Source of the DNA: Candidatus Melainabacteria bacterium SSGW_16
GTDB lineage: Bacteria; Cyanobacteriota; Vampirovibrionia; 2-02-FULL-35-15
DNA length: 64,000 bases
NCBI GenBank assembly: GCA_004769085.1
Contig: DUDS01000021.1
Coordinates: forward strand, 1-64,000
Direction: 5' to 3'
Shown: positions 45,035 through 63,044 of the stretch, piece by piece
How the letters are laid out: every line of letters begins with the position of its first letter
How positions within the stretch are numbered: position 1 is the first letter of the stretch
The notes under the pieces: generated by a model
The model's database searches: none
Told to the model about the DNA's origin: nothing
What the model saw: only the letters and a program-made list of their open reading frames with translations
Program-made: the position numbers and the translations under genes

Positions 45035-47386
45035 TTAACAATTTGTTGTTTCATGCTTTTCTAATTTCACCACAATACTTCTGGAAAAGTAAAAATAACC
45101 AATAATTGAAAGAAGAATTAAAACCAGTCCAAGGAATGCTGACTTATAAAATAAAGGTGGTATATAACCAATCTCAATAATGTGCTCACCTTTTGGTAAT
45201 TTAAAAAAACACCATCCCTTTAAATGCTGATTTAATTTTCTTCTTTTTCCATCTACAGCTATATAATATCCATTTCTGTATTCATTATGATAAAGCCATT
45301 TTGTTTTCACTGTAGAACTAATATGAGCTTTTATTTTTTCCCTGTCATATTCAAGTATTTTCAATAAACTTTCAGACGACAAAGGATATATCTGCCTAAA
45401 AAGCCATTGTGGTTTATTGGTATTGTATAAAACAATCTCCTCATCTTCATAAATAATAGGAAACTTACTCAAGATTTCTGAATATCTCTCCCAGTCTGTT
45501 GTTGCATTTATTTTTAAAACAACTGCTTTTGTTACTCCATACCGACTAAAGTATGTATTCAAGATCATTAATGGAGATCTAATTTTTGTTTTTAAGAAAG
45601 GATCATAATAATTCACTGCTCTTACATCATAAATACAGGAATAATTATGTGGAAGTGCAGTCACATAAGGGGCTTTATCATGACGAAAAGGAGCAAAGCC
45701 AACGAGAATATCTTTTTTACTAATATTCTGTTTAAGTCCTTTATTTAATTTAGGATATGGTTTTTCACCATAGGTATAAAATGCAGTATTTGTGCCAAAT
45801 ACTGCAATAATTATCGTCACCAGGAAAGAAAGGAAACCAGCATACCCAAGAACCTTTTTAAAGGCTACTAGTTTTCTTAAACTATTAAGCTGAAGCGTAC
45901 TATACAAAATTACTCCAAATATAGAAAGTGGAAAGCATTTAAATGGATCATGCATATTCTTTAGAAGAGGAATAAAGTGTTTTATAGGATAGATTAATGA
46001 AACAGGTCCACTAGGCAAGAAAAATAATACTGTAGCAAAAATTAGAAGCGGTATATAATCCCCTTTGTTGGTCCTTGCATATCTAACTATCCCAAGAAAA
46101 AATGGAATCATCCATAGAAGACCTATATAGAACATGTTTGTCATAAGAAAATCGTTCTCATTCCCCCATCCTTTTGGATGCTCTGCCCAGCTAATCGGAA
46201 ATGGGAAAAATGCTGATATAACAGCATCAAACGAAATGCCGGTATGAGAAATTAATGGTTCCCGAGCTTTCCCAACCTGCTTCAGGACAGAAATCTGTGA
46301 AATAAGAAGTGGTGAAATAATTCCGCATGTAAGAATCATGGAACAAAAATAACTACCAAATAATTTTCTTCCCCGTCTGAGCTTAATTTCTCCAAAAAGA
46401 TATGAAATAAATTCAATTATCAAAACATAAGAGAAATATTGTGCATTTCCGGCATAAAAAAATAACCCTCTCACTATTCCGACACATAAAAACCAAATCC
46501 AGCTTGCACCTTTTTTAATTGCAAATAGAAAAAAATATAATAAAGCAGGTAAATATAAAACAAATGCGCTTGCATAATACCAGCTTCTGATTGTTATAAA
46601 AAAATAAGGTGAAAATAAAAAAGAAACAGTGGCTACAAAGGATAAAAGTGAATCTATCTTAAGAAGTCTAAATGAATAGCCGAGAAATATGGCGCCAGTA
46701 AACATGCACAAGATAACATATATTTCCATAGTAATATATGGTTTTTGGAGAATGTATCTGCCTAGTGCATAAGAAATTATCATCAAAGGATCGAAAATTG
46801 CATACGTTCCTGTTTCAAACAACGGAGCACCAAAGTGTTGGTAATTATCAATAAAGGGTGATTTCCCCTGAAAAATGAGATCGAGTCCAACAAGTATTTT
46901 AGGAAAAAATTGTGCATGATTATCATCTTGTGTAAAAAAATAAGGATACATAAATTCTTTAAATAAGAGAAATAAAACAACAAAAGCGCCAGTAATCCAT
47001 ATAAGCAAGATAGAGACAGGTTTAGATTCAGTTTTTTCAGAACTAAAGCTGAAAAGCGATTTTAAAATTATTGTTAGAGTAGGATAAACACAATATATAA
47101 AAAGAGCAGCAAAAAATAAAATTACCGGAATAAATTTATGAAACCAATTATCTTCTGGAACATGCTGGGATTGAAAAAAACTAATAATCACTGGGTAATT
47201 AAACCAGGTTCCTTTAATCACGTTGGAAATTTTTTCTATCGTAATTAATCTTGGTAGAGACCATAAAAAAAATATAAAAAATATATATAGTCCAAAAATT
47301 ACATAAAATTTGTTGACCAATCTTGTACGGAATTTAAATACTAAAAGCAAAGTAAGTGAAATAATTATAAGGAAAGATAAAAGCAT
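45035..47386 (-). CDS. YfhO-like membrane protein
   Basis: A 783-residue protein with about 12-13 helices and a C-terminal extracytoplasmic region followed by a final helix. TQDDNHAQFFPKILVG in the first large loop carries the acidic pair of GT-C enzymes. The C-terminal block GYYIAVDGKRRKL...KLPKGEHIIEIGYIPPL is characteristic of YfhO proteins, which add sugars to teichoic or other surface polymers. It is a close paralogue of the next upstream gene (47391-49781), 4 bp away, so both are one transcript. Confidence 0.82.
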   Translation of the reverse strand: MLLSFLIIISLTLLLVFKFRTRLVNKFYVIFGLYIFFIFFLWSLPRLITIEKISNVIKGTWFNYPVIISFFQSQHVPEDNWFHKFIPVILFFAALFIYCVYPTLTIILKSLFSFSSEKTESKPVSILLIWITGAFVVLFLLFKEFMYPYFFTQDDNHAQFFPKILVGLDLIFQGKSPFIDNYQHFGAPLFETGTYAIFDPLMIISYALGRYILQKPYITMEIYVILCMFTGAIFLGYSFRLLKIDSLLSFVATVSFLFSPYFFITIRSWYYASAFVLYLPALLYFFLFAIKKGASWIWFLCVGIVRGLFFYAGNAQYFSYVLIIEFISYLFGEIKLRRGRKLFGSYFCSMILTCGIISPLLISQISVLKQVGKAREPLISHTGISFDAVISAFFPFPISWAEHPKGWGNENDFLMTNMFYIGLLWMIPFFLGIVRYARTNKGDYIPLLIFATVLFFLPSGPVSLIYPIKHFIPLLKNMHDPFKCFPLSIFGVILYSTLQLNSLRKLVAFKKVLGYAGFLSFLVTIIIAVFGTNTAFYTYGEKPYPKLNKGLKQNISKKDILVGFAPFRHDKAPYVTALPHNYSCIYDVRAVNYYDPFLKTKIRSPLMILNTYFSRYGVTKAVVLKINATTDWERYSEILSKFPIIYEDEEIVLYNTNKPQWLFRQIYPLSSESLLKILEYDREKIKAHISSTVKTKWLYHNEYRNGYYIAVDGKRRKLNQHLKGWCFFKLPKGEHIIEIGYIPPLFYKSAFLGLVLILLSIIGYFYFSRSIVVKLEKHETTNC

Positions 47387-47390
47387 AGAT

Positions 47391-49781
47391 TTAAGCTTCT
47401 TTAAGGCTTTGTTCCTTCATTAAGATCAGATAAGCCAGAAATGCCAGTACAATAAGAATTCCGCCCAATAATATTGAATATCCAAACAGTGGAGGAATAT
47501 AACCAATCTCAATAGTATGCCCACCTTTTGGTAATTTAAAATAACACCATCCATGCCAACTTTGATCCAATTTATATTTTTTACCATCAATAATAATATA
47601 ATAACCATCTCTATACTCATTATGATAAAGCCAGCCAGATTCAATTGGGGAATTAATTTTTGCTTTAATTTTTGTTCTGGTGTATTCAATGATTTCCGGA
47701 ACAACCTCAGGCATATAATTATTGCCCACAGGGACTGAAAAACTATAAGGCCACAATAACCATTTCGGATTATCAAAATCATAAAGTGTTAATAAATCAT
47801 CTTTATAAATTATTTTAAATTTTTCAAACTGACCAGCAAAATAGCGCCAGTTTGTAGGGATACTTGCATTCTGAATAATAACCTTCGTTACACCTAATAA
47901 TCCAAAATAATCTGTAAGATCTGATTTTGGTGGTGGTTGCTTAATCATTGTCGGTAACAATGGATCGTAAATATTAACAACCATTAGATCATATAAAACT
48001 GAGTAATTATGCGGCAATAAAGTTACATATGATGGTTTGTCATATCTTATATGAGTAAAAGTACATATTGTGTCATCTTTTTTAACCAAATCCCTGATTT
48101 CTTGTTTCAGATCAGGATAAGGTTTTTCTGCATATAAGTAAAATGCTGTATCAGTTAAATAAATAGCAACAATTCCTGTAATAATCATGTTTAATACCAA
48201 AAGAAAGTTTAAGATATTTTTTATTTGAACTATCTTTTTCAATTCGGTCAGTATAAAAGCAGAATAAATCATAATTAAGAACAAAGCAAAAGGATAGAAT
48301 TTAAATGCCTTATGCATCTTATTTAAAATCGGTATGAAATTCTTCATAGGATAAATAAGAGAAACAGCTCCGCTGCAAATGATAAATAAAAACATTGCCA
48401 ATAAAAGTATTCGATAGTACAAGCATTTTCCGGTCCTGATATAAAGAAGCGAACCAGCATAAAAACACATCATCCACAAAATCCCAATATGCCACATATT
48501 AGGCAGTAACCACCAGTTCTTATTACCCCACGTGGGGGTAGATTGGAAGAAAGGTGACGGTATAAAAGAAGAAATAAGTGCATCTATTGGCATACCACCT
48601 ATTGAAACAAGAGGTTCAACATGACGTTCAACACCCTTAAGCATTGTTATCTGGGAAATAAAAAGCGGGGAAATCAACCCAAATGTAAACAACAGAGAGC
48701 AAAAATACCCAGTTAAAACTTTTTTTCTATTCTCACTGTTTAATATAAGATAAATATATGAAACCAGTTCAATTAAAACACCATAAGTAAAAAACTGGGA
48801 ATTCCCTGCATAAAAGAATAATGCTCTTGCTAAACCACTTCCCAATAACCACAAAATATCATTTTTACCATGTAAGATCTTTAAAAAAAAGTATAAAAGC
48901 AGAGGAAGATAAAATACAATTCCAAATACATAATACCAACTTCTGCCAACCATAAGAAAATAGCCGCAAAGAATGTAGCAAAATACTGCTGCAATCCCTA
49001 CCAATGAATCAATTTTTAAATTCCTCAGACAAATTCCAAAGAATAGAGCACCAAAAAACATGCTAAGAATGGCGTAAATTTCAATTGTCAGAAAAATATT
49101 TTTAAAAAATTCTCTTGCTATAAAGTACGAGGAAATCATAATCGGATCAAGAATGGCATAAGTACCAATTTCAAAGATAGGCGCTCCAAAATGCTGAAAG
49201 TTATCAATAAAAGGAAACTCTCCTTTTAACAGCAACTGAATACTAACGATTATCTTGGGGAGGAACTGGGAATGTGTATCATCCTGGGTAAAGTAAAAAG
49301 GTGTATTTGTTTCTTTCAACAACAAAATTAAAAATATAATTGAAGAAATAAATAGAATATCCCCGATTGATATTATTGAAATTGTGGAAGCCTGTTTTGA
49401 AAACGGGAATTTATACTTAAGATAATTTATAATACTTGGCAATTGAAAAGAAATAAGAATAAGTCCAAGCGCAAAAAATACGGGTATTAATTTTGATATT
49501 AATTTATGATCAGGCGTGTATTCAACACCATAGTCAGATTCAAGGATCGGGAAATGAATCCCTAATGAATCAAAAAAGTCCATAAAAGGATTATTTGCAA
49601 ATAGCCGGGACAAAATCCAAATAATAATTACTGTTAAAAAATAAATACCGACAACCTTATTAAGATTTTGTCCTATAGATTTAAATAAACCAATTGATGC
49701 TTTTTTCTTTAAAAAACTAATCGTCTCATATAAGAGTGTTGATATAAGCACTATTAGAAGAATCAATAAAAATATTTTCAT
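47391..49781 (-). CDS. YfhO-like membrane protein, tandem paralogue
   Basis: A 796-residue protein with the same organisation as its downstream neighbour: TQDDTHSQFLPKIIVS in the first large loop, HFGAPIFEIGTYAILDPIM, and the C-terminal block GYYIIIDGKKYKL...KLPKGGHTIEIGYIPPL before a final helix. The two share sequence along the whole length, so they arose by gene duplication and may form a heterodimer or transfer different sugars. It lies 62 bp downstream of the HAD phosphatase gene, so it may be read from the six-gene operon upstream. Confidence 0.82.
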   Translation of the reverse strand: MKIFLLILLIVLISTLLYETISFLKKKASIGLFKSIGQNLNKVVGIYFLTVIIIWILSRLFANNPFMDFFDSLGIHFPILESDYGVEYTPDHKLISKLIPVFFALGLILISFQLPSIINYLKYKFPFSKQASTISIISIGDILFISSIIFLILLLKETNTPFYFTQDDTHSQFLPKIIVSIQLLLKGEFPFIDNFQHFGAPIFEIGTYAILDPIMISSYFIAREFFKNIFLTIEIYAILSMFFGALFFGICLRNLKIDSLVGIAAVFCYILCGYFLMVGRSWYYVFGIVFYLPLLLYFFLKILHGKNDILWLLGSGLARALFFYAGNSQFFTYGVLIELVSYIYLILNSENRKKVLTGYFCSLLFTFGLISPLFISQITMLKGVERHVEPLVSIGGMPIDALISSFIPSPFFQSTPTWGNKNWWLLPNMWHIGILWMMCFYAGSLLYIRTGKCLYYRILLLAMFLFIICSGAVSLIYPMKNFIPILNKMHKAFKFYPFALFLIMIYSAFILTELKKIVQIKNILNFLLVLNMIITGIVAIYLTDTAFYLYAEKPYPDLKQEIRDLVKKDDTICTFTHIRYDKPSYVTLLPHNYSVLYDLMVVNIYDPLLPTMIKQPPPKSDLTDYFGLLGVTKVIIQNASIPTNWRYFAGQFEKFKIIYKDDLLTLYDFDNPKWLLWPYSFSVPVGNNYMPEVVPEIIEYTRTKIKAKINSPIESGWLYHNEYRDGYYIIIDGKKYKLDQSWHGWCYFKLPKGGHTIEIGYIPPLFGYSILLGGILIVLAFLAYLILMKEQSLKEA

Positions 49782-49843: not shown

Positions 49844-50521
49844 TCAGATTTGAGACAGAAGTCCATCCTTGATAATAATTGTTCTTATATTTTCTGATTT
49901 ATCCTTCCTGTAGCTATCACCAATTATTACAGCATCTTTTCTGTTCCCAGATACTTTTTTTAATGCATAACTAAAAATAAATGGATCAGGTTTTTCAACT
50001 CCTGCTTCCTCAGAACTTACAATAAAATCGACATAAGAATAAATTTTTAGTTTGATTATCTTAGAAAACTGTATTTGTGAGCACAAGTCAGTAGCAATTA
50101 CAATCTTTTTTTTGTTCTTCTTACAATATTTTAAAAATGGTATAACCCACTGAAAAAGTTTCATTTTATAGAGGAAAGCTTTCCAGTAAATATCTTCAAG
50201 TGCTAGAGATTCTTTAAACATACTTCTCTTAAATATAAGTTCAAGCATTTTTTGGAAATACAAGAGTCTTGAATGTGAGGCTGCTTGGTTCCTTAGTGGG
50301 ATTTTCACAAGATTTCTTGCCCCATTATACTTTCTTAAAAAGTTTTTAAAAGTTATTCTCCCTATCTTTTTTAAATAAAACCAGTAAGAAGTTCTTATGG
50401 CATGAACATGGCAGGAATCATAATCATAAAGGGTATTATCCAGATCCAAGAGAATTATTTTTTTTGAATCAGCTGCTTTACAAAGTTCTAAAAATATATT
50501 TTTTGAAGTTAACTTTCCCAT
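49844..50521 (-). CDS. HAD-superfamily phosphatase
   Basis: A 225-residue HAD hydrolase. The start is taken as ATG 50521 (MGKLTSKN) rather than an upstream TTG. Motif I is LLDLDNTLYD, motif II VIATDL, motif III lysine in EEAGVEKPDP, and motif IV IIGDSYRKD. The size and the C1 cap fit small-molecule (sugar phosphate or nucleotide) phosphatases of the Gph/YjjG type. It is the last gene of the tight operon that starts at 57850 and overlaps the GDPD-like gene by 13 bp. It probably dephosphorylates an intermediate made by the kinase or aldolase of the same operon. Confidence 0.9.
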   Translation of the reverse strand: MGKLTSKNIFLELCKAADSKKIILLDLDNTLYDYDSCHVHAIRTSYWFYLKKIGRITFKNFLRKYNGARNLVKIPLRNQAASHSRLLYFQKMLELIFKRSMFKESLALEDIYWKAFLYKMKLFQWVIPFLKYCKKNKKKIVIATDLCSQIQFSKIIKLKIYSYVDFIVSSEEAGVEKPDPFIFSYALKKVSGNRKDAVIIGDSYRKDKSENIRTIIIKDGLLSQI

Positions 50522-51087
50522 AAATGTGGTACTTTTGTACAAACTGCATCAATCTTAAAATTTTTAAGTGTATTTTTAAACTCTTTTATTCTATCAGTGG
50601 AATAGCCTTGAAGCTCCGGAGAAACTATACAGAGCTTGAAACAATTTTTCAGTTTTTCATATGAATTACTATCAAGCGGCATTTTATTAAAACAGTCAAT
50701 CCAGACCCATTTTGTAATATTTTTAAGTGCCAAAGCCTGCTCCAGTGGCTCATATTCAGAAAATCTCACAGCTATATTATTTTCACCTTTTTTTGAAAGT
50801 TTTATTATTGCAGGAAAGGAAAGATCCAGGAAAAAATAATCCTTTACGCGATAAGAATTAATAAGCCTCAATGTCTCATCTTCAATACCCTCAGTTTTTA
50901 CATTCAATATAATAAATGAATGTTTGTATTTCTTTAATAGGTCTTCAAGATATTCACCGCTTTTATAAGGATCATGCTGAAGAATAAGTTTACTTCCCTC
51001 ATATCTGATATCAATCTCTATTCCCATATTAAATGGAACAGTTTCAAGGTCTTTTACAGTGTTTATTCTGTGCCTTATATAAAACAT
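50509..51087 (-). CDS. Glycerophosphodiester phosphodiesterase-like protein
   Basis: A 192-residue protein with a GDPD-type TIM-barrel pattern: IRHRINT at the N-terminus (His for the usual HRG), GIEIDIRYEG with the metal-binding Glu-x-Asp, and LILQHDPYK. Downstream is VKTEG, as in family members, and it is shorter than typical GDPDs (about 240). No signal peptide, so cytosolic. In this operon it may act on a phosphodiester made by the double nucleotidyltransferase, or catalyse a related lyase or transferase step. It sits 2 bp after that gene. Confidence 0.75.
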   Translation of the reverse strand: MFYIRHRINTVKDLETVPFNMGIEIDIRYEGSKLILQHDPYKSGEYLEDLLKKYKHSFIILNVKTEGIEDETLRLINSYRVKDYFFLDLSFPAIIKLSKKGENNIAVRFSEYEPLEQALALKNITKWVWIDCFNKMPLDSNSYEKLKNCFKLCIVSPELQGYSTDRIKEFKNTLKNFKIDAVCTKVPHLWES

Positions 51088-51089
51088 TA

Positions 51090-53387
51090 TTACTTACCGT
51101 TTAAATCAATTTCCCCTTTTGCAATTTTATCCTTTAACTCGAAAATATACTTGAATGTTCTCTTAATTAGTTTCCACTTCGTTTTAAAATCAGAACCACC
51201 GCCACCTTTTGCCTCCCCATAAAGCCTGTCCTTAAAATCCACAGGAATTGTTACAAAATTACATCCTTTCTTTTTTGCAAGATATAAAACATAAAGGTCC
51301 AGTGAAAAGTCATCAGGTGGATTTTTCATGCCATTAAAAAAATTTCTCGAAAAAAGCTTTGGCTGAGCATTAATCTCTGAGAGATAAGTGCCAAGAGAAA
51401 GACTTGCAAGAAGCTGCATGGCAAATGAAAAGAATTTCTCACCTGCCTTTCTGTTTGTCCTGTAGCCCTTCACAAAGGTATCAGGTCTTGTCTTTGACTC
51501 TTCTGTATAAAGCTTATATGCACGGATTACATCTTCCGGATTACATTGCATATCTGCATGTGTCCATGCCAAAACCTCGCCGATAGAATTTTTTAATCCC
51601 TGAACTATACCATTACCATAGCCTATATTTACGTCAATCTTTACTGGTTTAAGATAGCTATATTTCTTTTTTGCTTCCTGAAGAAAATTCCATGTGTTAT
51701 CCTTCGAGCCATTATCAACAATTACAAGCTCCATGTTGTTTTTATCAATCACCTGATCAAACCTGGTTAATAAAGTATTGAGATTTTTCTCCTCATTAAA
51801 ACACGGTACAACGATTGATAAAGAAATCTTGCTCGTACTCTTAAGGCTGAAATATCTGTTCCAATATTCATATGTCTTTAAATCATTTGGGGTTCCCCAG
51901 CATATATATTTCTCCAATTCAAAAACATGCACATTAAGATTATTTTTCACTAAATAATTCATACAGTTATCGATATAGAATTCGTTATTAATTCTGTCAT
52001 TTGCCTTTATCATTTCTTTTACATTATCAATGAAATACCTTCCTTTCCTGAACCAGAATGAACCTACAACTGCATGATCTCTGACAGGGTTATCGCTCAC
52101 AGGAATCTTAACTGAGACCTTTAAAACTCTGCTGCCATCTCTAACTAGGACCCACCCATACATTTTAGGGTTTCTTTTAACTGTTGGATTATTCCTGAAG
52201 GTAAATATCATTGCATCCACCCCGGAGCCAGGAGAAATCATCTCATTAAATTTTTTAAAATCATAAACCATTCCATTATCACAAGCACCTATCATAAGAG
52301 GTTTATCCGGTTCAATAGCTTCCTCCGCCAACAGCACTGTACAAGCTTGTCCTTCAGTAAGGTAATCCACCTCAATAATTTGTGCAGATTTAAATTCTCC
52401 TGAAACTGATTCCTTTATATCTTTTCTTTCAGCCAGCTCTTTTCTCATAATAAATATATACTTGTTTCCTTCCGGAATGGTTCTTGCCGCCTGAATAAAC
52501 ATAGGAAATCCATCAATATTAATCAGTGGTTTTGGAAGAGTATATCCTTCATGCTGGAATCTTTTCCCCTCACCAGCCATTGGAATTATTATATTCATTG
52601 CGTGTTTTACTTTATACCTTACAGAATTCTTTTTTTGTCTGAAATAATCGGACCAATACAAGTATTCTTCAAGATCTTCCGGTGTCCCCCATTGCAACAT
52701 GAAAGGTATTTCATAAATAATTATATTCAGATTATCTTCTTTCATCAGTTGAAATAACTGACTAACATAAAATTCATCATTAATTTTCCATTCTGGTCTT
52801 TTCTCAATCTCATGCATATATTTCTTTAAGTACTTCCCTTTTTTGAAATAATAAGTTCCTGAGCTGGACCAGTCATCCATTTTATTTTTATGCCAAGAGT
52901 GTTTCTCTCTTATTTCCTTCATCCATAGATCACTGGCATCAAGCGTTGCATAATTATTTGGACCAAGAAGATGCGGATGAAACCCTCGATAACAAACCAC
53001 TGCACCATCACAGTTACTTTCAACAATCTTTCTTTTAAAATCCTTGTAGTCCCATAACCAAGAAAAATCACAGTAGTTTACAATTATTTCTTCATTATCA
53101 TCAATGCATGATTCCATATTTCTAAGCCCATATAAAGGACCTTCTTTCTTATAGGGTATAGTTATAATTCTGCTTTTCGGTGCAATTTTTCTCAAAACAT
53201 CAACTATATTGGTGTCTTTTTCCTGCTCTTCATTAATAGCAAAAACAAAATCATCATCTTTAGAAAAATTTCTGACAATATGTTCAACTATTGGGCAGCC
53301 ATCAACAACAATTAATGGCTTTGGGATCTTATATCCTGCATCCAGGAATCTTTTTCCTCTGCCTGCAAGTGGTATTAATACCTTCAT
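51090..53387 (-). CDS. Fusion of two sugar nucleotidyltransferase domains and a GT2
   Basis: A 765-residue three-domain protein; ATG 53387 shares its A with the upstream TGA stop. Domain 1 (about 1-258): MKVLIPLAGRGKRF and PKPLIVVDG, ending in WGTPEDLEEY. Domain 2 (264-515): MNIIIPMAGEGKRF and PKPLINIDG, ending in WGTPNDLKTY. Both are nucleotidyltransferases with the G-x-G-x-R-F loop, diverged copies of one another. Domain 3 (about 521-765): GT2, SLSIVVPCFNEEKN, IVDNGSKDNT, THADMQCNPED. It makes an activated sugar or polyol phosphate and probably uses it. The substrate is not predictable. Second-domain motif residues such as ACDNGM differ from domain 1 (NYCDFSW), hinting at different jobs. 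Confidence 0.85.
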   Translation of the reverse strand: MKVLIPLAGRGKRFLDAGYKIPKPLIVVDGCPIVEHIVRNFSKDDDFVFAINEEQEKDTNIVDVLRKIAPKSRIITIPYKKEGPLYGLRNMESCIDDNEEIIVNYCDFSWLWDYKDFKRKIVESNCDGAVVCYRGFHPHLLGPNNYATLDASDLWMKEIREKHSWHKNKMDDWSSSGTYYFKKGKYLKKYMHEIEKRPEWKINDEFYVSQLFQLMKEDNLNIIIYEIPFMLQWGTPEDLEEYLYWSDYFRQKKNSVRYKVKHAMNIIIPMAGEGKRFQHEGYTLPKPLINIDGFPMFIQAARTIPEGNKYIFIMRKELAERKDIKESVSGEFKSAQIIEVDYLTEGQACTVLLAEEAIEPDKPLMIGACDNGMVYDFKKFNEMISPGSGVDAMIFTFRNNPTVKRNPKMYGWVLVRDGSRVLKVSVKIPVSDNPVRDHAVVGSFWFRKGRYFIDNVKEMIKANDRINNEFYIDNCMNYLVKNNLNVHVFELEKYICWGTPNDLKTYEYWNRYFSLKSTSKISLSIVVPCFNEEKNLNTLLTRFDQVIDKNNMELVIVDNGSKDNTWNFLQEAKKKYSYLKPVKIDVNIGYGNGIVQGLKNSIGEVLAWTHADMQCNPEDVIRAYKLYTEESKTRPDTFVKGYRTNRKAGEKFFSFAMQLLASLSLGTYLSEINAQPKLFSRNFFNGMKNPPDDFSLDLYVLYLAKKKGCNFVTIPVDFKDRLYGEAKGGGGSDFKTKWKLIKRTFKYIFELKDKIAKGEIDLNGK

Positions 53388-54196
53388 CACTCTGCCTCTA
53401 ACAGCTTCTGCCTGTATTGTTCTTCTTCCATATTTCTTATAAAATTCACATCACTTACAGACAGATAATCAATCTCCCATTTTTTTAAATTTATAAGTTC
53501 GGCAACCTTGTTTGAATAAACATTTAATTCTGATATTGCAATTTTCTGTTTATTTGATAATTTATTTTTATCAAGTGCAGAATAAACTACATGATCAGGT
53601 GTTAAAAACCCTTCTAAACTGATACTTTTGTAAGAGTCTGGCGAGTATTTAAAATAACCGGAGAGAGTATTAATAACTTCACTATGTAATCCAGTACACC
53701 CATCTTTATTTGGCGCAGAAACAAAAATACCATGGTTCTTTAAAAATAAAACCAATGGTTTGTTTAAATCTATGTCATTTGCTTTTACAAAGTCATGGAT
53801 TTTCTTAAATAAATTTTTACCGGGATTTGCATAATCAATCCAGAAATAATTTTTCCCGTTAAAAAGCTCATAAAAAACTTTTTTACCCTCTTTCGCACAT
53901 ACAATCCCACCTACAACAATAGGGTGAGTGTGAATAATATATTTGCCAAGCAAAAAATGAATAGCAGTTTCTAATGATGGTCTCAAATTTGGATTAATTA
54001 GTGGTTTCATTGTTCCAATTTCAAGAGAAACATATCCATTCTCCAAAGTCACATCTTCCAAAAAGAAACCAGATGCCTTAACAAGCATTTCATTACTGGC
54101 TTTTACAGAACAATTACCTCCTCCTCCCTGCACAAAACCGGGGTGCTTTGCAGCATAAGCAGATAAGTCTACTAAGTCTTGAATTAGCCTGCTCAA
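53387..54196 (-). CDS. Class II aldolase/adducin family protein
   Basis: A 269-residue protein, TTG start at 54196, the only one fitting the family N-terminus ([20 protein letters not shown]). The phosphate-binding GGGGNCSVK and the zinc histidines in YIIHTHPIVVGGI are visible, with NHGIFV carrying the third His. Such enzymes cleave or form sugar phosphates, or act as epimerases. The operon setting between a kinase-like fusion and a double nucleotidyltransferase suggests it makes the phosphorylated carbon chain that is then activated. It overlaps the upstream gene by 4 bp and the downstream one by 1 bp. Confidence 0.87.
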   Translation of the reverse strand: MSRLIQDLVDLSAYAAKHPGFVQGGGGNCSVKASNEMLVKASGFFLEDVTLENGYVSLEIGTMKPLINPNLRPSLETAIHFLLGKYIIHTHPIVVGGIVCAKEGKKVFYELFNGKNYFWIDYANPGKNLFKKIHDFVKANDIDLNKPLVLFLKNHGIFVSAPNKDGCTGLHSEVINTLSGYFKYSPDSYKSISLEGFLTPDHVVYSALDKNKLSNKQKIAISELNVYSNKVAELINLKKWEIDYLSVSDVNFIRNMEEEQYRQKLLEAE

Positions 54197-56274
54197 ATCC
54201 TTTTTGCCTTCATTTTATTATTGTAAATCAAAAGAAAAATAAGCTGGGTTATTCCATCATAATTGCTCAGCCATCCTGGCGATGATACAAGGAGCTCATC
54301 AAAATTAAGACCCATGTCAAATGTAAGTGAGATTATCTCCTGATCTGATATCAAACCATTAATCTCAATTTCCTGATTTATAAGATTTTCAGAATGTTTG
54401 TGAGTAACTTCAAGTGTCCTTATTTTTGACAAGCTTGAAAGTAAATTTTCAAGATTTATACTATTATCCAGTTCATACTTTACCTTTATAGGTATATCAG
54501 CAGGTTTAAGATCATTAAGATCAATATCAGATAAAGGAATATACCTGATTATAAGATCAGCAAATTCCCTTTGTGGTTTAATATATTTTTCGCTGTCTTT
54601 TGTACGTGAATTTATCTGCTCAACAACTTTTTCTTTTCGATAACCTCTTTCTACCATATCTCTGCCAACTTTCCAGAACTGTCTGAGTCTTTCATCAGGA
54701 TCCATAAATATTTTTATATCAATCTGTTCTCTCATACTCTTCAGATAAAACGGATGAAGACCTATAAAGAAAACAAATTTGTTCGGCTCAACTGTCTGTG
54801 GATTTGTAAATCTCCCTGTATCGTGATTATAATGAACAAGTTCAATTTCTCTTTCTTCTTTAAGCGCAACTGCAGACTCAACTTCCTGATGAAGCTTATT
54901 ACTTGCAGGATCAAGATGAGTGTAAACCTTCCAGTTTTCATCTCCTCTCTCCCATTTATGGAAGTTATCTCCATAAACCGGCACACATGAGGTTTTACCT
55001 AAAAGCTTTTCAAATATTTCATATGTAGTATGCTTGCCTGAGCCGCTATCCCCACCTATACCTATTAAAAGAGGTTTTTCTTTTATCTTCAGTTCTTCAT
55101 TTCGCTTCACACCACTTTGATACATCCAGATTGCACTAAAACCAACCGAAGATAAAAGCAATGAAACAGCAAGATTATGAAATAAAACAGGATCAATAAA
55201 ATTACTTAAGTGGGTATAACTCTTTTCAAAAAAGAACGTGAAATAAAGGGCATAAATCAGGTTATAAAGAATAAAAGGCGCTCTTGAATGATCAACATTG
55301 TTAATATAAAAATAAATCAAAAATGGCAGTGACCATACAAACCAGCCAGGCATTGGAGTAACAAATATAACAAGACATGCAAAAACTACTCCGGCAAACA
55401 TCATGAGTATTTCTTTATTAAGTTTTTTATAAGAGGAGAATTTCATAAAGAGGAGAAATATAACTATAGGACAAACAACTATACTCAGAGTATTTGAAAC
55501 CGGAAGTGAAAATTGATAAATTCTTTGTTGTTCAACTGCCTTAAAAACCATTTGTATAAATGCTTTTGAGCTAATATAGGGAGAAATAAAAAGCAGATAT
55601 AAAGCTAAAAATGACAAGAGGTATAAAGTAAATTTCAAAACACTTGATCTTTGTTTATAAAGAAAAAGAAATATAAAAGGTGTAAAAATAAATATGTGTG
55701 TCTTTGTTGCTGCAGCAATGGCAAGAAAAATAATTGAAATATAGTATTTTCTGTTAAGTAAAAGGAGAATTGCATAAAGGAATATTGCTGTTGGAATCAG
55801 GTCAAGCTGACCATGTATATAGTTAATAAAAAATATAATCGGTGAACACCAGTAGGTATAAAGAACCATTTCCTTTTTTGTAGGAAAGATTTTTAGAAAC
55901 AGATTGAACATAAAAATATCAAAACCAAGAAGAGGGAGCCTCATTACAAACAAATCAATACCAGAAATAATATTCCAGTTACTTGCCATTAATTTATTAA
56001 ATACAATCACAGGAGATGTCATTATCCAGAGCATTACAGCAGGATAAGGAAACATTTTTAATTCATTTAATGAATAAAAGTAATCCCAGGGATTCTTAAA
56101 GCCGGACTGAACAAACCACTTTATAAAGGGGGTAAAGTATTCTGTCAGATAATGAGATGAAAAGAAAAATGAAAAAATAATTTTAAGTATCAATATTGAA
56201 ATAAATAGTTTTGAAAAAAATATTTCATTTGGTTTCTGCTCTCTAAATGAAGGGTTAATATTATTTCTCCTCAT
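54193..56274 (-). CDS. GT-C-like membrane protein fused to a uridine-kinase-like domain
   Basis: ATG at 56274 is preferred to an in-frame TTG 15 nt upstream. About 693 residues: 1 to about 395 polytopic (about ten helices; early loop [17 protein letters not shown], like PIG-M/GPI-mannosyltransferase-like proteins), then a cytosolic kinase-like domain. The P-loop [11 protein letters not shown] is at 407-417, where the Ser/Thr after Lys414 is His415. Downstream are [24 protein letters not shown] and [15 protein letters not shown], which fit the uridine kinase/phosphoribulokinase layout. The domain may phosphorylate a sugar or polyol at the membrane. The unusual His in the P-loop should be noted. 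It overlaps the flavoprotein gene by 14 bp. Confidence 0.78.
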
Positions 56275-57850
56275 GATATTCCATTTCAACGTTAACTGCC
56301 CATATATTGTCCTTTGACTTTATACCATTAATTATGTTTTCAACCGCTGTCATTGCAGTAAGCATTGAATGATCCTGATTATTATAGCGATGCATGCCAT
56401 TCCTACCAACTAAAAAGAGATTCTCAATTTTGTCAGTAAATTCACGTATAACATCAAACTGATCATAGGTACCAAAATATGCAGGATAAGTATTCTTTAG
56501 TCTTATCACAGTGCTATCCAATACATCGTTCTTTTCAATAATGTCAATTTTCACTAGTTCATCTATTGCAAATTTTGAAAACTGTTCATCAGTCATACTC
56601 CATAACTCATCTCCCACGTTACAAAAATACTCTAGTCCTATCCAGGCCGTATCAGGGTCTTTTACCATATACGGGCTCCAGTTATTAAAAATCTGAAGTC
56701 TGCCTAATTTTACGTCTCTTTCCTGAATATAAATCCAGTTATCAGGAACAATGTTATTTATTGTAGGAATATTTGTCTGATTTTTAATTTTTAATTTTTT
56801 TAGCAATAATCCTACAGTAATGAAATCTCTGTAAACAAGTCCATCAGAAATTTTGCTTACATTTTCAGGTACTTTATTTCCCATACAGTGAATAAGTTCT
56901 TTGACAGGCATTGTTGAAAAGAAGTAATCTCCTTGGACATCTTTAATTTCTCCTGTTTTTGTATCTTTTATCTTTACTTCTACAATATTATTTCTATCAA
57001 GTTTTAGTCCTATAACTTCATGGTGTAAAAATACTTCCCCACCTTTTTCCCTGATTATTCTTGTAGTTTCCTCCCACATCTGACCAGGACCAAGTTTGGG
57101 GTATAAAAATTTTTCTATCAGGCTAGTTTCTGTATCTTTCTGAGAAAGCGAAGAATCTTTCGAAGATATTGCTTTTAGGGCATGTAAAATTGCTTTTGTT
57201 ACTGACAGTCCTTTAATTCTCTGTGCTCCCCATTCAGGTTTTATCTTGTCACATGGGGTTCCCCAGACTTTTTCTGTATAGTCCTTAAAGAAGGTGAGAT
57301 AAAGCTCTCTGCCAAATCTGTTTATAAAAAAATCTTCAAGCGATTTTTCATGTTTAATAGGGAAAAATTTTATTTTTAAATAACTTAAACCAATCCTGAT
57401 CATTCTTATAAAACCAAGATTGTTTATCGTATTCATATTCAAGGAAACCGGGTAGTTAAAAAATTTCCTTAGAAAGAATATCCTTGAAAGTCTTTTTCTG
57501 ATTAACATTACTTTGTCATTTTTTTCCGGATCAGGTCCGTTTTTTGACATTGAAATGGTTTTCTTTTTATTCTGATATGTAAGTTCCGTTGTTAATTCAT
57601 CTCTGGCAGGCATTCCCTGTAAAGGCATAATATTTTGCCACCATTCCATAACTCTGTCTGATTTGGAAAAAAATCTGTGTCCACCCATATCTATTTTGTT
57701 ACCCTTGTAGTTAACTGTTTTTGCTATTCCACCAATATCACCACTGGCTTCAAAAATAATTGGTTTAATATCAGTTTTGTGTAAAAACTCATACGCTGCA
57801 GTTAGTCCTGCAGGGCCTGCACCAATAATAATTGCTGTTTTTTTACTCAT
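56261..57850 (-). CDS. FAD-dependent oxidoreductase, UDP-galactopyranose-mutase/amine-oxidase-like
   Basis: A 529-residue flavoprotein. [13 protein letters not shown] (residues 10-22) binds FAD, followed by [15 protein letters not shown] and [14 protein letters not shown]. These are the opening motifs of the protoporphyrinogen-oxidase/UDP-galactopyranose mutase-like group. The C-terminal [16 protein letters not shown] closes the FAD site. Members in glycan loci rearrange or oxidise nucleotide sugars. It is the first gene of the six-gene operon, 174 bp downstream of the oxygenase gene. The activity is not fixed by sequence. Confidence 0.85.
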
Positions 57851-58945: not shown

Positions 58946-61081
58946 TTACTTATAAATAATTCTCATCCCTGCTCTTCTTGCTTCTATTATCTCACCTGTA
59001 AACTGTAGACCACATACACCACAATCAACCTGATTTTTACCTATAACAATTTGTTCGGGTTTTGTAGCATGAAATCCTGTAGGTCTGTCAAGCAGTGTCA
59101 TCCCATCCACTTTTACAATTACATTTCTACTTAAAGCACCTAAGTCAATACCAGGATAAAAAGAACCAAAACTCACCTCAATAATATATGCCCGATTTGG
59201 ATCTATTTGAAATATGTTGCTTGGAAAACCTTCTACACCCCAATGGTCATAGCATACCTGCCCTGTTGTAGCAGATAAATATTTTACATATATAGTATCC
59301 CCTGAGCCTGGTACACCGGTGGAAACAAGAGGTTCTGATTCACCGTGTCTTGGCTTAAATAAGACTTTTAAAGTCACAGGGCCTAAATATTTGTTTCCAT
59401 CGTCCCTTATTAAAGACCAATTTTTTCCATCAAACCAGAATAATGTTTCATCGCCATCAGGAGTCCATAGTTGTCCGGTTACAGGATATGATGGAAAAAC
59501 ATTTTTATCATCAAATCGCAAAACCTCAAGAACACCTGATTGTGATACTTTCTTAGAAGCAAAAATACTTATGTAATTATCTGCTTTTTTAAAGAAATTT
59601 CTGATTGGCGGTTTGGCATGCTCCGGAACAGACCAGTAGTTTAATTTAAATTTGAGCATAGTCATATTAGCAGTATAAATACTTAGTAATGCAAGAAGTA
59701 AAAATATTATCCTTACAGAGATTTTTAGTTTTCCTCCCTTTTTATCTGTCCAGTTAAAGAATTTAATTGCTGCAAATGAAAAAATTAGAAATGTTGGCAT
59801 AAGATCCGCTGTATATCTTCCTGTCATTGCCTGAAAGGAAAAGAAGAATAAATTAGAAATTACAAGGGCAAGAAAAAGGAAAATTCCTATTCCTCCATAT
59901 GCGCTAACTAATAAAAAAAGCCCAATAACAGAAGTAAAAAATAAAAATGGTGTGTGAATTATTGCCGGGTTGCCCGGTTCTATAACATCAAACCAGGTAT
60001 CTTTAAATTTAAAAATATTCCTGTAATCAAAAATTTCTATAAACGGAAATTTATCCGAAAAATGTTCTTTATGCGGGATTAGATGAAAAACTACTGAATG
60101 AGGGATCCGTGAATAATCCATAACCCCTTTTGTTGAAAGCCATAGCTGAAGCCTGCCTTTGTCAGCAATTGTTTTCTCGTAATAATGGTAGTCCATCATT
60201 ACAAATGGATTTCCCATTTTTTCATAATTTAACTTCACCTGGAAAAGAATACTTAAACCAGTAGGAATAATTAAAACAAGATAAGCCAGTAAGAGTCTTG
60301 AAACAGTAATATGAGTTTTCTTCCAGCCAAGCCAGTTTAAAACTGACTTGAGCACTTTGTTTTTAAAAAAATCACTTAAATTAGAAAGAAATAAAACAAA
60401 AATCAGTAAAAGTATGACAAGGAAAGGGAAAATACCAAAACTTGCACGGCTTAATAATGCAAAGCCAGAGCTTAATGACATAGCTAGCAAAAGCAGAAGG
60501 CCTATCCTGTCGGAAAACCAAAAATTAATAAATGCCCAGATAAAAACACATACATTTGCAAGTCCCCAGATTATTGCTTCATGATAAACATACGAAGATG
60601 TAAGCAGAATAACGTTATAAGAACCATAGGCAAAGACAAGAAAGAAGAGTATTGTATAAAAGTATCCTGCAACCCTCCGAAAAGCAAATGTACAGGAGAG
60701 CAGAATAACTATTGCCGCAATAAGATTTGATATCCTTGACCAGTCAGTATTATAGAATCTAGGGAATACACTAAAAATGCCCCTTACAAAGCCAGGGAAT
60801 GGCCCAAAATACATGTACCTTTTCCCGTTATGATAATATGTTTCCCCAAAATCAATTACTGCAGGGTCAAGATCAATTCTCCCTTTTAAGAGTTGATCCC
60901 ACGTGTTTACATAGTTTATCCCCATGTACTCTCTCGTGAATAGATTCATTTCACCATGGGTAACTATAAGTGTATAAAACCAGACAGTAAAAATACCTAC
61001 AAAAATAAAGAATAAAACTAAAATAGCTTTCTTAGGATTTAGCATCCTTAGCTTACGATCAAAATATGAATACCAGTCCAT
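58946..61081 (-). CDS. GT-C-like membrane protein with shared C-terminal beta domain
   Basis: A 711-residue protein. Residues 17 to about 505 are polytopic (about eleven helices) with an extracytoplasmic loop containing REYMGINYVNTWDQLLKG and YYHNGKRYMYFGPFPG. Residues 528-711 form the domain shared with the 315-residue membrane protein at 38857-39804 (GQLW, SEPLVSTGVPGSGDT, YVKYL, DHWGV, CGVCGLQFTGEI). It is about 67 bp downstream of nothing on its own strand, so it begins its own unit and leads into the oxygenase gene 66 bp after its stop. Probable transferase with an outer recognition domain. Confidence 0.75.
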   Translation of the reverse strand: MDWYSYFDRKLRMLNPKKAILVLFFIFVGIFTVWFYTLIVTHGEMNLFTREYMGINYVNTWDQLLKGRIDLDPAVIDFGETYYHNGKRYMYFGPFPGFVRGIFSVFPRFYNTDWSRISNLIAAIVILLSCTFAFRRVAGYFYTILFFLVFAYGSYNVILLTSSYVYHEAIIWGLANVCVFIWAFINFWFSDRIGLLLLLAMSLSSGFALLSRASFGIFPFLVILLLIFVLFLSNLSDFFKNKVLKSVLNWLGWKKTHITVSRLLLAYLVLIIPTGLSILFQVKLNYEKMGNPFVMMDYHYYEKTIADKGRLQLWLSTKGVMDYSRIPHSVVFHLIPHKEHFSDKFPFIEIFDYRNIFKFKDTWFDVIEPGNPAIIHTPFLFFTSVIGLFLLVSAYGGIGIFLFLALVISNLFFFSFQAMTGRYTADLMPTFLIFSFAAIKFFNWTDKKGGKLKISVRIIFLLLALLSIYTANMTMLKFKLNYWSVPEHAKPPIRNFFKKADNYISIFASKKVSQSGVLEVLRFDDKNVFPSYPVTGQLWTPDGDETLFWFDGKNWSLIRDDGNKYLGPVTLKVLFKPRHGESEPLVSTGVPGSGDTIYVKYLSATTGQVCYDHWGVEGFPSNIFQIDPNRAYIIEVSFGSFYPGIDLGALSRNVIVKVDGMTLLDRPTGFHATKPEQIVIGKNQVDCGVCGLQFTGEIIEARRAGMRIIYK

Positions 61082-61289: not shown

Positions 61290-63044
61290 ATGAGACTGCT
61301 TGTAATTGGTGCATCCGGCTTAGTTGGTAGCACCATATGTGAAGAAGCAAAAAAATGTAATATTCCTGTTGAAGGTACATACAACACCTTTTACACCAAC
61401 GGGTTGCATAAGCTCGACTACAGTAAAAAAAACGAGGTTGTAAAAATTATAGAAGAACAGAAGCCTGAAATCATAATTTGCCCTGCAGGAATAACAAATG
61501 TTGACTGGATAGAACAAAATCCACAAAAAGCTTGGAAAACAAATATTGAAAATATCAGAACAATGCTTGAAACTGCTGCTGCTTACGAAATTCCTGTTGC
61601 ATTTTTCAGCACAGACTATATTTTTGATGGTAAAAACGGTCCATATTCTGAAAATGATCTTTCAAATCCACTTAATATTTACGGACAGCAAAAACTTGCT
61701 GCTGAATTAATGCTTAAATCATACATGCCTCAAAAACATTTCATTTTCAGGACTTCATATGTGTTTGGTTTTGAAAGACAGGAAAAAAATTATGTCTATA
61801 GTCTGACCAGATCACTTTATGAAGGTAAAGAAACAAAAGTAGCAAATGATATGTTTATTACCCCTACGTATGCACCTGATTTGGCAAAGTTTGTTTTAAA
61901 AATAATAGAAAAAAATAAATACGGCACGTATAACATATCTGGAAGCAGCTATCTGCCTCGTTTTGAATTTGCCAGAATGATAGCAAATACTTTTAAATTT
62001 AATGAAAATCTTGTAGTTTCTTCAAAATTCCATGAGATGAAAGTTATTGCAGACAGGCCACTAAAAGGCGGGCTGAAAAATGAGAAGGCAATAAATACTA
62101 CTGGTTTCACCTTTACACCATTAGATCAATCACTAAAAGAAACCAAAAATCTTATGGAGAAAAATAGTCAGTTCCCTCCAAAACCATCTGTAGAAGAAAA
62201 ACAAATCACATCACTCAAGAGAGAAAAGGGAACAGATTCAAAAATTTGCATTTTTATTCCCTGTTTTAATGCAACTGTTACCCTGCCAAAAGTCCTCGAA
62301 AGAATACCTGCAAGCATTAAGGACAAAGTCCAGGAGATATTTATTGTAGACAACAACAGCGTTGATTATACTTATTTGCTTGCAGTTGGTTACAGAGAAC
62401 ATTCAGATATAAAAAATTTAAAGATCCTAAAAAATCTAAGCAATTTTGGTTACGGTGGCAGCCAAAAGCTTGCGTATTCTTATGCAATTAAACAAGGATA
62501 CGATATGGTGGTTATGCTTCATGGTGATGCACAATATGCCCCTGAAAAGCTTCCTGTAATGATTGAAGCAATGGAAAAAGACAAATCAATTGATTTACTG
62601 TTCGGTTCAAGGATGACAGGGGATCCGCTTAAGGGGGGAATGCCTCTTCACAGATATCTGGGTAATATCGCACTAACATTCATTCAGAACCTGCTTCTTG
62701 GAACCCATATTAGTGAATTTCACTCAGGGTACAGAATATTCAGAACAAGGGCGTTAAAAGAAGTTCCATTTCATCTCTGCAACAATGATTATCACTTTGA
62801 TACTGAAATTATAATTTTATTTATAAAAAATAAATTTAAAATAAGAGAAGTACCAATTGATACCCATTATGGCGATGAAAAATGCTATGTAAATATATGG
62901 AAATATGGTCTTCGTGTCCTGCTTACAACTTTTTGCTTTTTCCTAAATCAGAAAGGAATCAGAAAATATGAACTTTACAAAGACGGGCTTAAAGCAGACA
63001 CTGACAAAATTCTAAAAGAACTAAAGACAGAGATTATTCCTTAA
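61290..63044 (+). CDS. Fusion of RmlD-like reductase and GT2
   Basis: A 584-residue protein. Residues 1 to about 285: RmlD-like extended SDR, with GASGLVG at 7-13, FSTDYIFDGKNGPYSE, YGQQK as the catalytic Tyr-Lys, and RTSYVFG. This reduces a 4-keto nucleotide sugar to a deoxysugar. Residues about 317-560: GT2 with ICIFIPCFNATVTL, VDNNSVDYT, HGDAQYAPE and SGYRIF, of the undecaprenyl-phosphate type. The fusion would couple sugar synthesis to transfer. The stop lies inside the end of the convergent RmlC-like gene (11 bp overlap). Confident on both domains; substrates unknown. Confidence 0.88.
   Translation: MRLLVIGASGLVGSTICEEAKKCNIPVEGTYNTFYTNGLHKLDYSKKNEVVKIIEEQKPEIIICPAGITNVDWIEQNPQKAWKTNIENIRTMLETAAAYEIPVAFFSTDYIFDGKNGPYSENDLSNPLNIYGQQKLAAELMLKSYMPQKHFIFRTSYVFGFERQEKNYVYSLTRSLYEGKETKVANDMFITPTYAPDLAKFVLKIIEKNKYGTYNISGSSYLPRFEFARMIANTFKFNENLVVSSKFHEMKVIADRPLKGGLKNEKAINTTGFTFTPLDQSLKETKNLMEKNSQFPPKPSVEEKQITSLKREKGTDSKICIFIPCFNATVTLPKVLERIPASIKDKVQEIFIVDNNSVDYTYLLAVGYREHSDIKNLKILKNLSNFGYGGSQKLAYSYAIKQGYDMVVMLHGDAQYAPEKLPVMIEAMEKDKSIDLLFGSRMTGDPLKGGMPLHRYLGNIALTFIQNLLLGTHISEFHSGYRIFRTRALKEVPFHLCNNDYHFDTEIIILFIKNKFKIREVPIDTHYGDEKCYVNIWKYGLRVLLTTFCFFLNQKGIRKYELYKDGLKADTDKILKELKTEIIP

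Follow-up and report, generated by a model that had tools for sequence, protein, structure and literature searches.

A GT2 enzyme acting on polyprenyl phosphate, a GtrA protein and a GT-C protein make up the standard logic for a lipid-linked residue and its outward transfer, and the described systems closest to the cassette reported here are of this kind, namely the GtrA/GtrB/Gtr O-antigen systems and the DPMS-GtrA-GT-C scheme. The cassette resembles them in its GT2 of probable polyprenyl-phosphate type, its GT-C-fold protein, the GtrA found in 45 of the 89 loci compared and its occurrence on plasmids. Unlike them, not only does it add a precursor pathway of its own (two nucleotidyltransferase, or NTP, domains, a kinase, an aldolase, a HAD phosphatase and a GDPD-like protein), but its GT-C domain is also fused to the kinase and carries no conserved acid in loop 1. 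A second likeness is to the haloarchaeal non-carboxylating pentose bisphosphate pathway, in which a HAD and an enzyme of the FucA type have been shown biochemically to convert RuBP to Ru1P and on to DHAP and glycolaldehyde (PMC9700705). The cassette is comparable in that its HAD lies closest to RuBP 5-phosphatase, its aldolase is of the same FucA type and the bisphosphate would come from its PRK-like kinase. Haloarchaeal RuBP, however, comes from R15P isomerase, and the haloarchaeal pathway is catabolic and has no NTP, GT2, GDPD or GT-C (PMC9700705). The cassette HAD also falls below the curated cut-off: the best curated model for the HAD of our locus is NF053830, RuBP 5-phosphatase, with 137 bits against a cut-off of 330, a model that all 36 HAD members tested matched with the best E-value of any. 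A literature search on the gene set, activated ketoses, BcbE-G, CDP-ribulose and xylulofuranose, with most subscription journals outside its coverage, found no description of the cassette, in line with the initial annotation, which knew of no pathway with exactly this set. We file the cassette under the known scheme in which a glycosyl donor is nucleotide-activated and lipid-linked, its precursor pathway being undescribed.

The locus lies in a surface-sugar region of a bacterium whose draft genome comprises 2.25 Mb in 46 contigs; the window is the whole 64,000-nucleotide stretch that was analysed. The six-ORF operon was confirmed at the coordinates first reported (Table 1), and its ORFs overlap or abut as had been claimed. 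The overlaps given by the initial annotation (14, 4, 1, +2 and 13) hold if the kinase, NTP and HAD genes start at internal ATGs, while mechanical starts give 29, 4, 4, +2 and 34. Pfam finds the HAD, class II aldolase, PRK, GT2, NTP_transf_3 and amino-oxidase domains, and the second NTP domain and the GDPD that had been proposed are borne out by the family alignment and by structure. Promoter and terminator scans stayed at chance level. Among the neighbours are a fused RmlD-GT2 ORF and an RmlC-like ORF. Two large membrane proteins of 783 and 796 aa, alike in look, the second with a C-terminus that matches YfhO, are possible candidates for partner transferases. A further multi-pass protein, of 711 aa, has no Pfam or NCBIfam match.

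Table 1. Coordinates of the operon, its neighbours and the loci compared with it (NTP, nucleotidyltransferase).
Feature	Locus	Positions	Strand	Remark
Six-ORF operon	Window	49844-57850	-	
FAD oxidoreductase (flavoenzyme)	Window	56261-57850	-	Transcribed first; outside conserved unit
GT-C + PRK-like kinase fusion	Window	54193-56289	-	Transcribed second; core gene
Class II aldolase, FucA/RhaD type	Window	53387-54196	-	Transcribed third; core gene
NTP-NTP-GT2 ORF	Window	51090-53390	-	Transcribed fourth; two NTP domains and GT2
Tandem NTP domains	Window	51846-53390	-	NTP1 residues 1-250, NTP2 265-515; core gene
GT2, DPMS/GtrB-like	Window	51090-51845	-	Fused to NTPs in window
Small GDPD-like TIM barrel	Window	50509-51087	-	Transcribed fifth; core gene
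HAD phosphatase	Window	49844-50542	-	Transcribed last; core gene
Two adjoining membrane proteins	Window	45035-49781		
Multi-pass protein	Window	58946-61081		
RmlD-type reductase fused to GT2 domain	Window	61290-63044		One ORF
Canonical-looking GDPD	L116	9114-9830		
Broader module	L124	4459-7239		
Broader module	L125	4819-7572		
Broader module	L129	4181-6937		
Broader module	L126	5226-7486		
Broader module	L029	6719-10192		
Broader module	L122	4341-7501		
Cassette, E. coli IncR plasmid	L027	6022-13224		
Cassette, E. coli IncR plasmid	L123	3774-10976		
Synechococcus phage cluster	L120	9001-12303		
Synechococcus phage cluster	L121	9001-12309		
Carbamoyl-phosphate synthase-like genes	L103	2338-5675		
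Carbamoyl-phosphate synthase-like genes	L105	12268-15509		

Conservation as a unit was the test that the initial annotation had named for its own refutation, and the set passed it. Scanning the GTDB species genomes with the double-NTP alignment, with E-values relative to the candidate stretches, yielded 321 stretches that match; the 80 best of them, chosen by NTP similarity, together with the window, plasmids and contigs of relatives, form a set of 89 loci from about 15 phylum-level groups, in which genes were found mechanically. The GT-C/kinase fusion, aldolase, double NTP, GT2, GDPD and HAD are all present in 59 of the 89, and many of the incomplete loci stop at a contig edge. By profile searches, the NTPs occur in 89 loci, the GT2 in 82, the GT-C/kinase and the aldolase in 76 each, the HAD in 75, the GDPD in 74 and GtrA in 45. 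In 56 of the 59 complete loci the core genes share one strand, with a median gap of -4 nt, and how far two loci have diverged in one of the seven domains tracks their divergence in the others (r = 0.67-0.93, with permutations reaching 0.20 at most), in part because of shared ancestry. The conserved unit consists of five of the six operon genes in the window, from the GT-C/kinase to the HAD; the GT2, which most loci encode separately, belongs to it, and it is often accompanied by GtrA. The make-up proposed at first has to be amended in that the flavoenzyme, which had been assigned a rearranging or oxidising step, is absent from all 88 other loci. Not only is it confined to the window, but it also belongs to the common PRK07208/NF005546 family (881 bits to NF005546, cut-off 418), which rules it out as a pathway member; it is an accessory gene placed first in this operon. 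No extra conserved enzyme that would name the sugar turned up in the neighbourhood, where the other genes code for membrane proteins of various kinds or are widespread sugar genes.

The cassette is also found on plasmids. When plasmids were searched by tblastn for the NTP-NTP-GT2 protein, hits lay on Hirschia baltica pHbal01, an E. coli IncR plasmid and Azospirillum brasilense p5, all of which group the double NTP, GtrA, GT2, a 'phospholipase C/GDPD', a 'uridine kinase/phosphoribulokinase', a HAD and a class II aldolase; the RefSeq labels for the cassette genes are domain names only. Two E. coli IncR plasmids, one isolated from human stool, the other from frog-farm sediment, carry cassettes that are at least 99% identical, whole, and between or beside IS26 copies; on one of them (L123) a broken AIDA-repeat ORF lies beside the cassette. 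A quick tree of the NTPs intermixes phyla, with Flavobacterium inside Campylobacterota for example, a pattern that would fit horizontal movement of the cassette without proving it. Part of the set also occurs in ocean phages: in the glycan clusters of the Synechococcus phages Bellamy and S-SM2, the double NTP adjoins a class II aldolase and a GT61, with no match to the kinase, HAD or GDPD in either cluster. That the cyanophages retain the double NTP with the aldolase links the latter to the substrate of the NTPs.

The GT-C/kinase protein (698 residues) is a single polypeptide wherever it is found, with the GT-C domain at about residues 20-400 and the kinase at 404-694. The C-terminal kinase matches Pfam PRK with 122 bits. 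In the AF2 model (pLDDT 90.9; all input alignments were without plasmid rows) it is predicted to adopt the complete PRK fold, including the C-terminal part, with a VIA Z of 30.5 to the cyanobacteria-specific PRK 9qkp (rmsd 2.5, 283 aligned), 28.7 to the archaeal PRK 5b3f and about 21 to uridine kinases; the ranking by fold and by sequence rules out a uridine kinase. It shares with phosphoribulokinases the P-loop and the RxxD...Q signature, and the substrate-site signatures DxxH-xxx-R, YxHxxG, GLH and KxxRD..R are invariant in 37 of 37 members and align to PRKs. Nevertheless, the Walker-B type Glu of the PRK EGLH is S, A or another residue in 34 of the 37, and W453 and H458 are invariants specific to this family, so the substrate is not necessarily ribulose 5-phosphate. 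The relatives of the fold include enzymes for non-sugar alcohols, pantothenate among them. A Calvin-cycle role is ruled out, as the window genome (95% complete) has no match to PF00016 (RuBisCO) and the fusion kinase is its only PF00485 protein. Thus the kinase domain first proposed is present, but as a PRK-like enzyme rather than a generic sugar kinase.

For residues 20-400 the model predicts a GT-C fold, closest to the GPI mannosyltransferase I 9wno (PIG-M/ALG3-like; VIA Z 27.2), with a Z of 25 to ALG3/ALG6 and 23.6 to PIG-U. GT-C transferases normally carry their base as an acid in the first periplasmic loop; in the first loop of this family (residues 36-123, assuming the topology) no column exceeds 50% D/E, and PIG-U offers the precedent of a GT-C fold without transferase activity. 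Judged by the alignment, whether the GT-C domain acts as a transferase is uncertain, and of the transfer step attributed to the GT2 and the GT-C, a GT2 of probable polyprenyl type and the GT-C fold are there, but transfer by the latter is in doubt.

The remaining core enzymes keep their core catalytic residues, with the exceptions noted. The aldolase (PF00596) matches L-fuculose-1-phosphate aldolases by profile, and the family alignment keeps E76, H89, H91, H155, Y122, N28, S42-G43 and S74 at 99-100%; mapping them to FucA, we take E76 to be the catalytic Glu, the three His to be zinc ligands, Y122 to be the catalytic Tyr and N28, S42-G43 and S74 to form the phosphate site. Enzymes of this type join DHAP and an aldehyde into a ketose-1-phosphate, and a 4-epimerase is disfavoured by the invariant catalytic Glu. 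Five complete-looking loci (L040, L064, L080, L081 and L110) have no aldolase, and no adjoining enzyme was found that could substitute for it. The HAD (PF13419) keeps all four motifs (D33/D35, T151, K184, D209). Both NTP domains, remote kin of RmlA/GlmU-type pyrophosphorylases, have invariant G-x-G-x-R and K (PK) signatures as well as D108/D371 and K163/K428 in the family alignment. The GT2 (PF00535) scores 61 bits to the Dol-P-Man synthase 5mlz and matches the GtrB-like PHROG 841 with an E-value of 3e-19; its metal motif H611-A-D613-x-Q615 is invariant, with His always replacing the first Asp of D-x-D-x-Q. The genome to which the window belongs yielded no GtrA.

The small GDPD-like protein (192 residues) was placed by its structure model alone. 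None of 36 members match the Pfam GDPD models at an E-value of 0.01, Pfam and NCBIfam gave a single spurious sub-threshold match, and a PDB search with the sequence or the profile found nothing; the AF2 model (pLDDT 96.7), on the other hand, reaches a VIA Z of 17.4 to 2pz0, and the top ranks are nearly all GDPDs. Consistent with this, the family alignment has H6-R7, E24-x-D26, H38 and K64 invariant, corresponding to the catalytic His pair and the metal acids. One locus without the small gene (L116) carries instead a canonical-looking GDPD, whose presence suggests a functional replacement. Within the class, the genomes with the double NTP nearly coincide with those with the GDPD. Moreover, there is a broader module, seen in glycan clusters of Gastranaerophilales, a Rhizobium plasmid and the cyanophage S-8S53, that combines one or two cd04183-like NTPs, a HAD, a GDPD-like protein and, in many cases, a small cupin. 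Its double NTP and GDPD are remotely homologous to those of the cassette, but its HAD is of another subfamily (beta-phosphoglucomutase type), and it has no kinase, aldolase or dedicated GT2. It may accordingly be the NTPs, and not the kinase, that the HAD and the GDPD serve.

We read these data as a mobile and widespread cassette whose products build an uncommon activated residue, attach it to polyprenyl phosphate and bring it across the membrane to modify surface glycans, with a probability of roughly 0.55. Against this reading stand the aldolase-less loci and the missing GtrA match in the window genome. The NTP domains very probably make an NDP-linked intermediate, from which the GT2, together with GtrA where present, would form and move a polyprenyl-phosphate-linked donor; the GtrB-like GT2, the GtrA of 45 loci and the GT-C fold all point to a residue moved outside. 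A bolder version, in which the cassette is an undescribed route to a new polyprenyl-linked donor (an activated ketose, for example), includes a PRK-derived kinase anchored in the membrane and is spread over hundreds of species and moved by plasmids, we hold to be possible, at a little under even odds. The PRK-derived kinase, the HAD nearest to RuBP 5-phosphatase, the FucA-type aldolase and the haloarchaeal precedent point weakly to ketose-phosphate chemistry, weakly because the HAD is below its cut-off and the kinase site is altered, and a ketose phosphate as the precursor is a tentative and rather doubtful proposal. If so, the kinase would phosphorylate O-1 of a ketose phosphate, the HAD would take off the distal phosphate and so yield a ketose-1-phosphate, the aldolase would connect the latter with DHAP and an aldehyde, and a nucleotidyltransferase would activate it. 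The GDPD and the second NTP might process a phosphodiester or a second nucleotidyl intermediate, and both the module without kinase and aldolase and the five aldolase-less loci suggest that they act on some further intermediate. The GT-C scaffold would either carry out the transfer despite lacking the usual loop-1 acid or, as PIG-U, only bind the lipid-linked donor. Taken as a whole, the initial annotation stands as regards the conserved unit, the GT2 and GT-C and, with the exceptions noted, the core catalytic residues, while the flavoenzyme has dropped out and the proposed order of steps found no support.

The residue could instead come from a small polyol or acid phosphate (of the glycerol-, glycerate- or tetritol-phosphate type) rather than a ketose, with the GDPD and the HAD making or recycling a phosphorylated alcohol, the kinase phosphorylating it and the NTPs producing a CDP-alcohol-like donor. 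The GDPD-family fold, the relatedness of the kinase to enzymes such as that for pantothenate, an active site unlike that of a true PRK and the broader module, which works without kinase or aldolase, would all agree with such a route, but the aldolase residues are strictly of the ketose-1-phosphate type and the gene is kept in 76 of the 89 loci, and the GT2 is of the glycosyl-transfer and not of the alditol-phosphate-transfer type, so we regard it as unlikely. It is still less probable, and indeed quite improbable, that the cassette makes an ordinary nucleotide sugar through non-orthologous enzymes and that only the gene combination is unfamiliar. The strict co-inheritance of seven domains, among them a pair of NTPs, a GDPD and a kinase joined to a GT-C in one protein, argues against an ordinary sugar and no precedent was found in the literature searched, although the remote kinship of the NTPs to RmlA/GlmU-type enzymes and the RmlD-GT2 and RmlC-like neighbours speak for it; we know of no common sugar pathway with two NTPs, a GDPD and a kinase/GT-C fusion. 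Polysaccharide clusters readily reshuffle, and the leading flavoenzyme is such a case, but for the five-gene core the complete copies, the common strand and the correlated divergence refute a chance juxtaposition in one MAG, whose probability is negligible. A strictly conserved, dedicated pathway predicts a discrete chemical product and, if the bolder version above holds, a whole glycan building block would so far have been missed. We know of no settled account of how bacteria activate the ketose residues that occur in certain polysaccharides, and joining a kinase to a GT-C domain is unusual as an architecture.

Finally, the nearest named relative is the Candidatus Caenarcanales isolate SW_12, whose double NTP is 65% identical, which makes the window organism a non-photosynthetic relative of cyanobacteria. 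Related double NTPs occur in GTDB genomes of cultivable bacteria, including Flavobacterium, Lysobacter, Halobacillus and Paenibacillus, and these carriers, like E. coli with the plasmid, make the question testable in tractable strains. In two related loci (L103 and L105), carbamoyl-phosphate synthase-like genes follow the NTP-GT2 genes.
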